Below are positions 10,960 to 17,889 of a stretch of 54,191 bases of DNA, one piece after another. Position 1 is the first letter of the stretch. Each line of letters opens with the position of its first letter. Source of the DNA: Candidatus Peregrinibacteria bacterium GW2011_GWF2_38_29 (GTDB lineage: Bacteria; Patescibacteriota; Gracilibacteria; UBA1369; UBA12463); contig LBUS01000013.1 of the NCBI GenBank assembly GCA_000992695.1, forward strand, positions 1 through 54,191, read 5' to 3'. Made by a program: the position numbers and the translations under genes. The notes below the pieces were generated by a model, which saw nothing but the letters and a program-made list of their open reading frames with translations, had not been told where the DNA came from and did no database searches.

Positions 10960-11832
10960 TTAAACTCTCAACATACTGCGATAACCGGAATCCCCAAATC
11001 TATTTGTGTTAAAAGGGCTTTGACGGAAAAATCTAGGTCTAGAGTACTCACTATTATAAAAAGCACAATTAGCTCCAAGTAAAGGAAACGCTCCACTTTC
11101 AAACCACATAGTTACACCTTGTTGAGATCCATCACGAGAATCACAAGCAAAAGAATGATCCGTAGCATTTTCATACATATCCATCAATCTTTGATCTGCA
11201 CTAAACAACTCCCAACCTGAACGACGTTTTTTATAATTATTTTCAAGACTCCAATAATGCATCGCGGAACGTCTATTCCAAAAATAGTTCCCATCATGCC
11301 CTTCAATAGATTTTCTATCTAAAGCAAATAATGCTCTACGGTTGTCATCGACTCCAAATAATACCGCACTACCAACACTTGGTCTTTCTACGCTTAAAAG
11401 TTTAGAAGCATCGTTTGCAAGAAGCCTATTTTCAATTTCTCGCCACGAAATCATTCTTTTTAATGAACTTGGTAAAAAACAATATTGAGATTTAAATCTA
11501 GCTAAACGTGCAGCAAACTCGTCTGGTGAGACAGGCAAATCCGTATATTCTTTGATACATTGTTGCGCCTTTACTTCTGCCAAAACCGCATGACGAACAG
11601 CGTCAACATCATCGTCTTTTCTCAAGCCAACACAAAACGGGTACATATCTATAAATGTGGATTTTGAACGATCGTCCTTGTTAATATTTAATCTATACAA
11701 ATGTTCTCGCGTTACAACTCCACGCTGTATTAATCCAATAGCGTCATCACGCAACTTATCAGGTATACCTTTCCACTCTTCGCGTCTTTTTTGTTCTCCA
11801 CTATAATCGTCAGAAGGTTGATTAAATTTCAT
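10960..11832 (-). CDS. Hypothetical protein, unrecognised
   Basis: 290 aa, no signal peptide or TM segment. The N-terminal 120 residues are charged and helical. The C-terminal half is rich in Trp, Arg, Tyr and Asn, and ends in a string of aromatic/Arg residues with a final GYRSMLRV. That ending faintly recalls C-type-lectin/FGE-sulfatase-like folds, whose C-termini read GFR-x-V, but this is weak. It has its own near-perfect promoter (TTGACA-N17-TATAAT). It is followed by epmA after 22 bp, so it may also drive epmA and efp. Confidence 0.65.
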   Translation of the reverse strand: MKFNQPSDDYSGEQKRREEWKGIPDKLRDDAIGLIQRGVVTREHLYRLNINKDDRSKSTFIDMYPFCVGLRKDDDVDAVRHAVLAEVKAQQCIKEYTDLPVSPDEFAARLARFKSQYCFLPSSLKRMISWREIENRLLANDASKLLSVERPSVGSAVLFGVDDNRRALFALDRKSIEGHDGNYFWNRRSAMHYWSLENNYKKRRSGWELFSADQRLMDMYENATDHSFACDSRDGSQQGVTMWFESGAFPLLGANCAFYNSEYSRPRFFRQSPFNTNRFGDSGYRSMLRV

Positions 11833-13011: not shown

Positions 13012-13752
13012 TTAAGCCACCTTTTTTTCTTTTCCTTCAAACCAACCACTATCTAAATCATCATTTCGAACCTTTTCATCATCAGCCAAATATGAACCAT
13101 TAACGGCTTTATTAACCGCATCAATAATAACTGCCTCTTTTGGATGAATATGGTCGAAATAAAACTCATGCATATCTGAAAGAGCGCTTTTAACTATTTC
13201 AAAAGGCTTACCGCTCAAAGCTGAATAATCTTTCTCGTGCAAAACTCCTTGCCCTTTAATGTTTTTACAAAACACAGGCATAATCACATAACTTTCGTCT
13301 TTATCTTTATAGCAAATGACACAATCAGCACCTGTAAAATGAGCAAAACGACTTGCTGTAAACAACTTAGGATCAACAATATAAGCATTATCGCGCAAAC
13401 CAACAGGAAGTTTTTCAAAACTTTTAGCTAAATCGCTATCCCCGGGAACTAATTTCAAAATAGCCTCCATCTCTTCAGCGGAAAAACGATTATGTCGCGC
13501 CAATCCATCAATATAAGCATCTAAGCCTTCTGCGGGACGAGCTTCATCAAATTCACCCTGTCTAAAAACTGCATCAGTTCTAGTTCGCGTATCAGCAAAA
13601 TACTTAGGCTTAAGCTTAAAATTTAATTTATCAGTATCGGCAGCGGGATCAATTTCAGGTGAACTTGCATCTCTCAAACGAAATGGTTGCCAAACAGGAT
13701 CATTTGGAGGAAAAAACTGGTTGCCTTTTTGACCATTATTCACGTCACCCAT
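13012..13752 (-). CDS. Hypothetical protein, unrecognised
   Basis: 246 aa, soluble, no signal peptide. The N-terminus is Pro/Asn-rich and disordered-looking (NQFFPPNDPVWQPF). A folded part from about residue 70 contains GADCVICYKDKDESYVIMPV, and then KGQGVLHEKDYSALSGKP, a beta-rich pattern that might be a small binding domain. It has an extended-consensus promoter and stands alone, convergent with the flippase-like gene. I cannot assign a function. Confidence 0.65.
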   Translation of the reverse strand: MGDVNNGQKGNQFFPPNDPVWQPFRLRDASSPEIDPAADTDKLNFKLKPKYFADTRTRTDAVFRQGEFDEARPAEGLDAYIDGLARHNRFSAEEMEAILKLVPGDSDLAKSFEKLPVGLRDNAYIVDPKLFTASRFAHFTGADCVICYKDKDESYVIMPVFCKNIKGQGVLHEKDYSALSGKPFEIVKSALSDMHEFYFDHIHPKEAVIIDAVNKAVNGSYLADDEKVRNDDLDSGWFEGKEKKVA

Positions 13753-13900: not shown

Positions 13901-14728
13901 ATGCTCCCATACCCAAACATCAACCCCGTCCTCGTAACTCTCGGCACCCTCGAAATCCGATGGTATGGCTTGATGTATATTTTGGCTTTTGCTTTTGGAA
14001 TCTTGCTTATCAAAAAATTCTTTAGTGAGCGAAAAATCTATCTTTCAAAAGACTTTCTTGTAAACCTGCTTTTGGCCGCGCTTCTTGGCGTTTTAATCGG
14101 TGGCAGAATCGGTCACGTTTTAACATCATATCAATTTTTTTATTTCGCAAATCCACTCGAAATCTTCAAGGTTTGGAAAGGCGGAATGGCTTTTTTTGGC
14201 GGCGTAATCGGATTTACGGTTGCTCTCTACATCTTCAGTCGCATTGAAAAAATTTCATTCTATAAAATCATGGATTTAATAATTCCATGCATACCACTCG
14301 GAATCGCGTTTGTGCGCATCGGAAACTTTATAAATGGCGAACTTTATGGAAAAGTCACAAAATCCGCAATTTGCATGTATTTTCCGGACGATCCGGGACG
14401 CTGCAGATACCCTTCCCAACTTCTTGAATTTTTACTTGAAGGTGTCGTGCTTTTCTTAATTCTTTTCTTTCTACGCAAAAAGAAGCTCGAACCGGGAGTT
14501 ACGACTTGGCTTTTTGCAGTTCTATACGGCATTTTCCGCTTCATAGCAGAATTCTTCCGTGAAATCGCTCCTGATCAAACACCTATTTTTAAAATATTTT
14601 CGCTCGAACAAATGCTTGCGGCAATCATGACGATTATTGGTGCAGGAATGATCGCGTTCATCTTGATTCGAAAATCTAATCCTGATTTACCTTCACAGAC
14701 ACCGCTTCCTCCAGTTTCTTCTCATTAA
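13901..14728 (+). CDS. lgt: Prolipoprotein diacylglyceryl transferase
   Basis: 275 aa integral membrane enzyme that transfers diacylglycerol from phosphatidylglycerol to the Cys of prolipoproteins. Typical features: the start PYPNINPVLVTLGTLEIRWY, GGRIGHVL, KVWKGGMAFFGGVIG, and the Lgt signature VRIGNFINGELYGK with the conserved Arg and Asn. About seven TM segments. The last 53 bp overlap the 3' end of the convergent endonuclease Q gene. It implies that this organism makes lipoproteins. Confidence 0.93.
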   Translation: MLPYPNINPVLVTLGTLEIRWYGLMYILAFAFGILLIKKFFSERKIYLSKDFLVNLLLAALLGVLIGGRIGHVLTSYQFFYFANPLEIFKVWKGGMAFFGGVIGFTVALYIFSRIEKISFYKIMDLIIPCIPLGIAFVRIGNFINGELYGKVTKSAICMYFPDDPGRCRYPSQLLEFLLEGVVLFLILFFLRKKKLEPGVTTWLFAVLYGIFRFIAEFFREIAPDQTPIFKIFSLEQMLAAIMTIIGAGMIAFILIRKSNPDLPSQTPLPPVSSH

Positions 14729-17066
14729 AAATCTTAATTTTGCCATATTCTCCATCATATCCCGGCACAATTTTTAATTTGCCTTCACGAATTCTCAAAA
14801 CTCCTTCCGCAATCTTTAGCGTCGAAATTTTCGCAATTTCTTGTATAGGCGTTTTTAATAAAATCTTAAGTTCATTCCCAAGCGCATAAATCAATTTCAA
14901 ATATTCATGTTGCACTTTTACGCTTGTTTCAGAAACGCCCATCGCATCCGCAATAATCTTATCCAAAGAAACCAAGTTTTTATAAGGAATATGTTTCTTG
15001 GGCACATATCCAACCTTTCGATCAGCCAATTTTTCCACACGATTCAAAACCCCAACCGTCACTTTACGGCCACACTTAGGACAAATCCCATTATGTTTTC
15101 GGGTTTCTTCAGGCGAAAAAGACACATAACAATCCGCATGCCCATCAAAATGATATTTTCCCTCTTCCGGAAAAAATTCAATCGTATACAAAAACTTTTT
15201 CGGGTCTTTTTTGCGCACCGCATCGAAGATTGCCGTATAACTCAAATCCGTATCAAAAACATTTGCCTCTCGCCCAATCCTTGGCAAAGAATGCGAATCC
15301 GAATTCGAAATCAGAGTCACTTTATCAAGCGCAGAAAGCCTGAAGTTCATCGCAGGATCAGAATTACCACACCATACCGGAATACCATTTCTTCGAACAT
15401 AAACAACGTGATTCGGAACCGTAACACAGTAAACTTTATCATCAAAATCAACCCATGCTTCAATACGCCCGGCTTTATTGACAGTAGACGGCAACACTGT
15501 GTGAATATTATGTCTTATAAAATAAATAACCCAACTATCGGCACTTTGTTTATAAATTTTATTATATTTTTGACCGGGACTTTTAAATGGATGTCCTTTT
15601 TTATTATGCAATTTATAATAAGCCGACATTCCTAATTTCAAAGCGACCTCCTGTAGATCATTACGTAAACGAACAGATATGGTTGTAGCGGACAATCCTT
15701 TACCATTACGACCGTACACATGACCATCGCCCTCAATGTAATATTCAAAAAATATATTCAACAAACGAGGAGATAACGATTTCACTTCCAACGGAACAAA
15801 TTTGTCAGCTGCTTTACCAAATTTCTCTAAATAAGAAAATAGCTGATAATTTCTTACACGAATAACCCCCATCTCTTTTTTATTCCAAAAAACATTGTAA
15901 CCAAAACTCTCAAGAATACCTTTCATCTCTAAAATCAAACCACGATCTTTATTGGCCAAACAAACGCTATACGATCCATCTTTACCTCCTCCGGTAACCC
16001 ATCCTTCAGCAATCCAAAGCCCAAAAAATTTCAACCAAGACTCAATGGGTATTTTCTTCTCATTTTTAACCCTACGCCCGGAATAATATTTGCTACCATG
16101 TCTCGGATAAACTGTCGGTAAAGTAAAATAATCCTCATCTTTACCGATCCAGATGCCGTCTTTTTTAAAACATTTTGATTTATTAAATGACAATTCGGCC
16201 TCTTTTAAAGAAAATTTTAAAGGTTTTCGAAAATCACAATGACTATAAAATAACTTGTGATTAGGCGTAACTAATAAATCAATCCTTTTGGTTTTAAGTC
16301 TATACATCTTCCCTTTATATTTATAGGAATGTATTTTCAACGAATTTTGGAATTCAACCTCATTGGTTTCAGGATTAAGGGTACAAATTTTGTCATAATT
16401 ACCAACTTTAGAAACCTTCTTCCATCCATCATCGGTAAGAATTTCGGTCTCACCGTCATAACACGAGAGCCCCGTTTCAATCGCAAAAATTTTATCAGTC
16501 CATTTTCCAAAACATTCTTCAAGCGAATCAAAACCCGACATAGATCCAAAAACAGAAAAATAAGGAGTCCAAACGTGCGCCGGCACAAGCACAGCCTCAT
16601 TTGAAACTGTAAAAACAATTTCCGCGAGTTTATCAGAAGGCAAACCCAAAATCGGCCTTCCATCGCTCATCAAATTTCCAACCGCAGAAAGTTTTTTATT
16701 TATTTTTTCCGCAATTTCAAAAGATGGGACAGCAATCAAATTATGCACCCTTCTCCCCTTCCCGAGCGCCGTATAAATACTCGAAACCTCACTCGTCAGC
16801 ATAAATCTCATATCCGCTCTGCAACTTTCCGGCACTTCATCTATAAGCGTTTTTTCAATTTCAGGTTTCAGCTTAAACAAGCCATATTCAGCAGGCTCCA
16901 ATTTTGACCGCAACTCTTTAAACCAAATCGGATGCGTAAAATCACCAGTCGCCATAACTTTAATTCCTTTCATTTGCGCCCATTTATAAAGATTTTCCAA
17001 ATCCATCTTCCCACTCGTCGCCCGAGAATATTTTGAATGAATATGTAAATCAGCAACAAACTGCAT
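14676..17066 (-). CDS. Endonuclease Q (PHP-domain DNA repair nuclease) interrupted by an intein
   Basis: 796 aa precursor: a 429-aa host protein plus a 367-aa intein. The host part matches the TIGR00375/EndoQ family, which nicks DNA 5' of deaminated bases such as uracil and hypoxanthine. It starts with the PHP metal motif ADLHIHSKYSRATS, then TGDFTHPIW, VPAHVWTPYFS and, after the intein, SNSDSHSLPRIGREAN. A zinc motif (CPKCGRK) and a helix-hairpin-helix-like C-terminus follow. Without the intein the length matches archaeal EndoQ (about 424 aa). EndoQ is known mainly from Thermococcales and some methanogens with scattered bacteria, so transfer from archaea is plausible. The 3' end overlaps lgt tail to tail. 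Confidence 0.85.
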   Translation of the reverse strand: MQFVADLHIHSKYSRATSGKMDLENLYKWAQMKGIKVMATGDFTHPIWFKELRSKLEPAEYGLFKLKPEIEKTLIDEVPESCRADMRFMLTSEVSSIYTALGKGRRVHNLIAVPSFEIAEKINKKLSAVGNLMSDGRPILGLPSDKLAEIVFTVSNEAVLVPAHVWTPYFSVFGSMSGFDSLEECFGKWTDKIFAIETGLSCYDGETEILTDDGWKKVSKVGNYDKICTLNPETNEVEFQNSLKIHSYKYKGKMYRLKTKRIDLLVTPNHKLFYSHCDFRKPLKFSLKEAELSFNKSKCFKKDGIWIGKDEDYFTLPTVYPRHGSKYYSGRRVKNEKKIPIESWLKFFGLWIAEGWVTGGGKDGSYSVCLANKDRGLILEMKGILESFGYNVFWNKKEMGVIRVRNYQLFSYLEKFGKAADKFVPLEVKSLSPRLLNIFFEYYIEGDGHVYGRNGKGLSATTISVRLRNDLQEVALKLGMSAYYKLHNKKGHPFKSPGQKYNKIYKQSADSWVIYFIRHNIHTVLPSTVNKAGRIEAWVDFDDKVYCVTVPNHVVYVRRNGIPVWCGNSDPAMNFRLSALDKVTLISNSDSHSLPRIGREANVFDTDLSYTAIFDAVRKKDPKKFLYTIEFFPEEGKYHFDGHADCYVSFSPEETRKHNGICPKCGRKVTVGVLNRVEKLADRKVGYVPKKHIPYKNLVSLDKIIADAMGVSETSVKVQHEYLKLIYALGNELKILLKTPIQEIAKISTLKIAEGVLRIREGKLKIVPGYDGEYGKIKIFNEKKLEEAVSVKVNQD
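15363..16463 (-). other. Intein with LAGLIDADG homing endonuclease, inside endonuclease Q
   Basis: Residues 202-568 of the precursor. It begins Cys-Tyr-Asp-Gly-Glu-Thr-Glu-Ile after host ...ETGLS and ends ...IPVWCGN before host Ser (SDPAMNFRLS), so Cys1, Asn-last and a Ser +1 nucleophile are all present. Block B is VTPNHKLFY (TxxH). The endonuclease has two LAGLIDADG-like helices, FFGLWIAEGW and FFEYYIEGDGHVYG, each with an acidic residue. Block F is VYCVTVPNHVVYV. The penultimate residue is Gly instead of the usual His, a known but less common variant. Splicing would restore ETGLS-SDPAMN, the conserved host sequence next to the active site. Confidence 0.9.
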
Positions 17067-17142: not shown

Positions 17143-17889
17143 CTAACGAATAATAATCGTCCCAATATATTCACCCAAGCTCTCAAGCTCATCAGGAAAA
17201 AGAAGATCATCTCTATGTAAAAATTGATCCAAGCTTCCAATTTGATATTTTTTCAAAAAGTCTCCTAATCCAGGAACGCTTAAAAGTCTACGCCTAGTTA
17301 AAGCTTCAATTTTTTCAACGCCATCCATTTTAGCCTCTCTCGCAAGATCAAAAGCAGCATCAGAACAATTAGATTTACGTGACCCACTCAAACTATAAAT
17401 CTCGCCCTGCAAATGCTCTGTAAACCATTTTCTAGCTTCAAGCTGTTTATCAACAGGAACTTTCGCATGTTTTATATTTATCGGACAATTTTTATAAGCC
17501 GAATTTTTCAATAAATCATCAAGTGGATAATCTTTTGCACACGTCGGAGGCCTACAGCCCATAACCATCCATTGATTCCCAGCCTGATCAAAATACATTA
17601 TTTCAGAATGCCAATGATTTGGCTCAGCATAACCAACGGTTTTCGCTCCATCAGCAATAAAATCATCAGCCCCACCAGGCTTATTATCAGGTTCAAAAAG
17701 AAGCAAATAAACATCTTCCGGACCCTTCCCAAGATCATCAAAAGAATCAAGCATTTTCCTTTCAACTTTTTCTTCTTTACCTTGTTTATCAAAAGCATCA
17801 CCGCTCTTACGGCCAAAAACCAACGTCACGCCTGCACCAAGCGCACCACGTAAAACGTCCCTCCTACCATGATCAACACCTTCTCCCAT
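17143..17889 (-). CDS. Putative exported permuted NlpC/P60-like (YiiX/YaeF-type) protein
   Basis: 248 aa. The N-terminus GRRDVLRGALGAGVTLVFG looks like a twin-arginine signal (RR-x-x-L followed by a hydrophobic stretch). The mature part has His first (EPNHWHSEIMYFDQAG) and Cys later (SRKSNCSDAAFDLA), the order of the circularly permuted papain fold of YaeF/YiiX (DUF830) peptidases or amidases. This is motif-level inference. The promoter is TTGACT-N17-TGT-TATAAT at 17924-17896 and places the start of transcription on the ATG, so the mRNA may be leaderless. Confidence 0.55.
   Translation of the reverse strand: MGEGVDHGRRDVLRGALGAGVTLVFGRKSGDAFDKQGKEEKVERKMLDSFDDLGKGPEDVYLLLFEPDNKPGGADDFIADGAKTVGYAEPNHWHSEIMYFDQAGNQWMVMGCRPPTCAKDYPLDDLLKNSAYKNCPINIKHAKVPVDKQLEARKWFTEHLQGEIYSLSGSRKSNCSDAAFDLAREAKMDGVEKIEALTRRRLLSVPGLGDFLKKYQIGSLDQFLHRDDLLFPDELESLGEYIGTIIIR

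Follow-up and report, generated by a model that had tools for sequence, protein, structure and literature searches.

We conclude with high confidence that the EndoQ homologue encoded by contig LBUS01000013.1 of Candidatus Peregrinibacteria bacterium GW2011_GWF2_38_29 (54,191 nucleotides, referred to here as the window) is interrupted between Ser201 and Ser+1 by a mobile class 1 intein, which carries an apparently intact LAGLIDADG homing endonuclease and has probably spread by homing. The element itself is of a well-known mobile-intein kind. EndoQ, a repair nuclease, appears to be new among intein hosts, with two separate sites that have each been invaded in two phyla, and a literature search found no earlier report of EndoQ inteins. 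The source genome measures 1.23 Mb and its 16S is bacterial; a search of it for further inteins found none. The features of the gene are listed in Table 1.

Table 1. Features of the intein-containing EndoQ-homologue gene (window positions).
Feature	Position	Strand	Basis or remark
EndoQ-homologue gene with intein, 796-aa precursor	14676..17066	(-)	ORF; extein match to PfuEndoQ 5zb8, E 1e-45
N-extein, 201 aa: PHP motifs DLHIHS, H164 of PAH, E197 of ETGLS	16464..17066	(-)	counterparts named in PMC4357722
Class 1 intein with LAGLIDADG homing endonuclease domain, 367 aa, C1...GN	15363..16463	(-)	
Block B TPNH, intein aa 66-69	16257..16268	(-)	T66 and H69 invariant, 58 relatives
First LAGLIDADG helix, intein aa ~141-155, FFGLWIAEG, catalytic acid E153	15999..16043	(-)	
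Second LAGLIDADG helix, intein aa ~235-249, FFEYYIEGDGH, catalytic acid D246	15717..15761	(-)	
Blocks F/G: VYCVTVPNHVVYVRRNGIPVWCGN, penultimate Gly, terminal Asn	15363..15434	(-)	
C-extein, 228 aa and stop: Ser+1, SDSH motif, CPKCG zinc-finger motif	14676..15362	(-)	
C-extein side of the stretch most divergent from the empty-site congener, possible co-conversion tract	15324..15362	(-)	

The precursor ORF contains no internal stop codons, and the intein occupies precursor residues 202-568 precisely and in frame. When it is removed the two exteins join in frame as ETGLS/SDPAMN to give a 429-aa protein, and the ETGLS-SDP sequence is restored just as had been predicted. The joined extein flanks align with Pyrococcus furiosus EndoQ over its full length, and the PHP residues and CPXCG motif, which are listed for EndoQ in PMC4357722, are all found in the window extein. 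Like the P. furiosus enzyme (5zb8, 7k30), it has the PHP motifs, SD(S/A)H and the CPKCG zinc motif, although the P. furiosus enzyme, unlike the window gene, has no intein. Since the spliced extein scored 195.5 bits with TIGR00375, under the cut-off of 326.6 and thus outside the curated equivalog bound, we refer to the host protein as an EndoQ homologue and regard EndoQ-equivalent activity as putative.

With respect to intein class, residue 1 of the insert is Cys, block B contains the TxxH motif, block F includes Cys346, and the intein ends in Cys-Gly-Asn367 with Ser+1 next. The penultimate His common in class 1 inteins is absent, and Gly366 is found instead. Class 2 inteins have Ala1; class 3 inteins lack Cys1 or Ser1 and have a WCT motif. 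In the window intein residue 1 is not Ala, Leu71 is at the Trp position and Cys365 at the Thr position, and only Cys346 of the triplet is shared. Because Cys1 is present and the WCT triplet absent, the sequence places the insert in class 1 and in neither class 2 nor class 3. Two LAGLIDADG helices are present, each with an acidic residue (E153, D246), as in homing endonucleases of this type. BIL domains occupy variable, non-conserved host sites, lack an endonuclease and do not require a +1 nucleophile; a BIL domain was ruled out by the endonuclease, by Ser+1 and by insertion in a part of the host protein that ranks among its ~5% most conserved.

Profile searches scored the insert above the cut-off for TIGR01445 (intein_Nterm; 30.7 bits, cut-off 24.5) and Pfam LAGLIDADG_3 (57.2 bits, cut-off 22.5), and below it for Pfam Intein_splicing (22.9 bits, cut-off 35.8). 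An AlphaFold model of the intein, based on an alignment of 58 relatives, had a mean pLDDT of 93.4, and in this model predicted helices 140-153 and 232-246 carry the LAGLIDADG motifs. The top PDB matches to the model (Foldseek) were the archaeal and yeast VMA inteins TliVMA, PhoVMA and PI-SceI, along with PI-PfuI. All have in common with it the HINT fold and an inserted two-motif LAGLIDADG endonuclease (Foldseek probability 1.00), although they reside in other hosts and are only 12-17% identical in sequence. The motifs, the exact exteins and the fold model, along with an empty site in a congener, bear out the original prediction of an intein inside an EndoQ homologue.

The empty congener allele provides a natural control for the intein-bearing allele. 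The EndoQ of congener G001 is 92% identical in amino acids to the window extein and has no insert, the two genes align over 1290 nt of extein sequence at 90% identity with no gaps, and the neighbouring genes (lysS-like and lgt) are the same. EndoQ of a second congener is likewise without an insert; it is represented by two overlapping, slightly different fragments on separate contig ends (L090, G002:C74; L098, G002:C30), which are either two gene copies or a strain mixture in the assembly. Within the window's order the intein is present in 1 of 89 genomes. Also in this order, the EndoQ of G033 is identical to that of Peregrinibacteria RIFOXYB2_FULL_32_7 (L013), which suggests that the order is Peregrinibacteria.

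The insertion point, termed site B, is four residues past the Glu that is invariant in the PHP active site, and the intein sits, much as predicted, beside conserved active-site residues. A second point, site A, comes immediately behind His164 of PAH, an invariant histidine of the PHP domain, and before CWTP, 37 residues upstream of site B. Site-A inteins were found in at least two genomes of the window's phylum (L160 1075-3573, L161 1048-3666) and at least three of the Omnitrophota sample (L186, L187, L288), and they form their own clade (100/100, four rows). They are class 1 inteins with an endonuclease domain and occupy the same host protein in both phyla, as at site B, but they have Cys+1 and a penultimate His and only about 20% identity to site-B inteins, and they make up a second family unrelated to the first. 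None of the EndoQ genes seen had both sites occupied. Ranked for conservation among 8-residue EndoQ stretches in the sample, site B falls in the top 4.5% and site A in the top 7.1%; inteins generally sit in the most conserved sites of their host proteins (PMC2814812). The haloarchaeal MCM inteins, which occupy two neighbouring sites in one gene (PMC10643990), resemble the EndoQ sites A and B in this respect.

When EndoQ homologues were searched for the same insertion site, site-B inteins ending GN/SDP were found in at least three Omnitrophota genomes (L191, L192 and L193). They are inserted at the same point (ETGLS/C...GN/SDP), are homologous to the window intein over its full length and share its endonuclease motifs, whereas they belong to another phylum and sit in host genes that fall apart from the window's in the tree. 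Identity to the window intein is 61.6, 65.4 and 60.9%, respectively, against 55.8, 46.7 and 53.5% for the exteins, and in all site-B pairs the inteins resemble each other more than the exteins do. L186 and L187, which are close to each other and have their inteins at site A, differ the other way, with 70% identity in the intein and 77% in the extein. The site-B inteins form one clade (support 100/99), while the window extein groups with its own genus (100/100) and the extein of L191 is 91% identical to the inteinless L026. In tests on a 27-row tree, holding the four site-B exteins together was rejected (AU p=1.4e-9), as was holding together those of the window and L192 (AU p=2e-6). As the inteins are one clade but the exteins are not, and intein identity exceeds extein identity, the sequences argue that the intein has moved horizontally among bacterial EndoQ genes. 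The conflict between extein and intein phylogenies, a comparison put forward in the original prediction, together with the identity contrast, is what a homing element would leave and provides our main evidence for mobility. This makes a clear case of an intein common to Peregrinibacteria and Omnitrophota lineages independently of the host gene.

It can be envisaged that Cys1 takes up the N-extein as a thioester, that Ser+1 then accepts the N-extein, and that cyclisation of Asn367 would release the free intein and the restored ETGLS-SDP enzyme. The freed endonuclease would then cut empty EndoQ alleles at the conserved site-B sequence, and repair would copy the intein into the cut allele; in this way the intein could cross from one lineage or phylum to another and leave the host genes behind, as the trees suggest.

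The same site in two phyla and a wide, low-frequency presence might also be accounted for by a very old bacterial EndoQ intein that descended vertically and was lost in most lineages. This would require very many independent losses, and it is at odds with the identity contrast between the site-B and L186/L187 pairs, with the rejection of extein monophyly and with the disagreement, throughout, of the intein tree and the EndoQ gene tree; we consider it unlikely. Beyond the window, no site-B intein was found in the order (89 genomes), in the phylum sample (380) or in 247 genomes from the Desulfobacterota-type phylum to which L035 belongs. The same-site search covered bacterial genome samples only, and the intein counts are minima. 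At 65% identity, even the closest same-site intein among the genomes searched points to no recent donor, and a phage or plasmid donor was rejected as relatives of this kind are only 25-38% identical. GC3 is 0.28 in the intein and 0.37 in the exteins, which is weak as a sign of recent arrival because lower GC3 is common to most of the EndoQ inteins examined.

The penultimate Gly had been predicted to slow or condition splicing. We found that among 74 distinct viral relatives, which were picked with patterns outside the penultimate position, Gly occurs there in 67, with terminal Asn in 71, Ser, Thr or Cys at +1 in 73 and Cys1 in all 74. Phage and viral class 1 inteins (IMG/VR L199-L278, Lak phage, Mycobacterium phages) resemble the window intein in Cys1, VTPNH, VYCVxVPNH, RRNGxxxWCGN ends and a LAGLIDADG domain, but those with Gly-Asn ends are only 25-38% identical to it and lie in other host proteins. 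The IMG/VR sequences make up a large viral subfamily in which RRNGxxxWCGN is followed by Ser, Thr or Cys, penultimate Gly is the rule and the flanking hosts are many and different. A penultimate His is not obligatory in class 1 inteins (PMC7664689; PMC5050341), and the Bethlehem gp51 RDF intein, which is likened to the window intein by its penultimate Gly and not by placement in the same subfamily, splices with Gly and is slower when this is changed to His (PMC5050341). Because Gly is the norm in the subfamily and the RDF intein is slower with His, we take it to be a subfamily trait and no sign of slow splicing.

The unspliced precursor is probably inactive, because the insert adjoins active-site residues. 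An inactive unspliced host protein is a property of many inteins. It is nevertheless conceivable that the intein is a regulatory switch kept for its benefit, which holds EndoQ inactive and splices only on a cue such as stress, damage, temperature or redox. In favour of this, insertion beside active-site residues would disable the unspliced enzyme, and conditional splicing is known for some inteins, for example mycobacterial DnaB (PMC6195587). However, the intein is confined to one genome of the order and is missing from two EndoQ-bearing congeners, the penultimate Gly is ordinary in its subfamily, and an intact endonuclease with lateral spread suffices as an explanation; we give a switch only a slim chance. 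A broader form of the idea, that inteins are retained at two sites beside active-site residues of EndoQ because conditional splicing controls uracil/hypoxanthine repair by this nuclease in bacteria with reduced genomes, seems to us just as improbable, although if true it would make EndoQ a recurrently intein-controlled repair enzyme. We found no evidence for a regulatory role; scattered occurrence, endonuclease motifs that are intact and lateral movement all suit a selfish homing element.

The first EndoQ to be described came from archaea and the enzyme has been termed mainly archaeal (PMC4357722), and both host gene and intein had been suggested to come from there. A genome scan, which was seeded with the window's own protein and gives no measure of archaeal EndoQ frequency, recovered at least 514 confirmed relatives, of which 80 were kept, all from bacteria, either placed (Omnitrophota, Patescibacteria, Nitrospirota, Desulfobacteria and others) or unplaced. 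Homologues are present in 16 of 59 close relatives and in 101 of the 380 phylum-sample genomes; in the Omnitrophota sample about 205 of the 285 genomes have one (207 match the precursor, but two or more of these do so weakly and probably via the intein only). Both samples are partial. 'Mainly archaeal' therefore does not fit the EndoQ family, whose homologues are common in bacteria. Joint acquisition of EndoQ and intein from archaea might draw on the first description of the enzyme and on an archaeal plasmid intein that is 32.5% identical, but phage relatives are as close as this one, the intein relatives at 61-65% and the only same-site relatives among the genomes searched are in Omnitrophota, and the closest extein is in the same genus as the window; we judge it very unlikely. 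Of the proposed transfer, horizontal movement of the intein fits the sequences and the archaeal source is unsupported. The extein does lie in a bacterial clade, an outcome that the original prediction had counted against itself; this holds for the host gene and leaves the intein reading unaffected, because the intein moves independently of the gene.

That the insert is a domain unable to splice, a degenerate intein or the product of a chimeric assembly, as the sub-threshold Intein_splicing match could indicate, is scarcely credible given that all class 1 residues are kept, the insertion is precise and in frame, same-site homologues in three other genomes keep the splice-site residues, and both flanks are 90% identical to the congener with conserved neighbours.

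Homing can bring flanking DNA along (PMC10643990). Compared with G001, the most divergent 42 nt of the window gene sit on the junction (15 mismatches; scan p=0.003, codon shuffling), and L187 compared with the inteinless L081 shows a local excess of divergence at site A (p=0.0024). No such excess at the junction was seen for inteinless pairs (p 0.32-0.97) or for L191 against its relatives (p 0.30-0.74). In the 60 nt at the window junction six mismatches are window-specific, five congener-specific and four ambiguous, and because changes fall on both lineages we regard the divergence only as a hint of co-conversion. The first codons past the junction (TCT GAT CCT ... ATG AAC) agree with L192 rather than with the congener; over the whole 60 nt the match to L192 and to the congener is tied, 6 against 6 of 14. 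An L192-like donor of the tract is likewise no more than hinted at.

Some further features of EndoQ genes were noted. Long reading frames in G574, G509 and G648 were considered as intein carriers and rejected, as they are fusions of an EndoQ homologue with a UvrD-like helicase (assigned by eye) in one ORF: L188 and L189 (G574, G509) are 1004 and 1063 aa, and L285 (G648) is cut by the locus end. These fusions hint at a bacterial EndoQ-helicase repair partnership. G187, G201, G425, G154 and G371 have EndoQ homologues in single frames of 459-542 aa, in which the match is interrupted close to residues 250-256 (in G371, close to 320), probably by small insertions and not inteins. In L191 (1733-10417), L192 (2740-10552) and L193 (19-5818) EndoQ lies amid pyrimidine-synthesis-like genes, assigned by eye, in the order pyrR, pyrB, pyrC, EndoQ, pyrK, pyrD. 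Near the window gene, ORFs at 13012-13752, 10960-11832 and 17143-17889 (-) have no Pfam match, and the first of these is missing in congener G001 (L163) from the interval between the homologous flanking genes.
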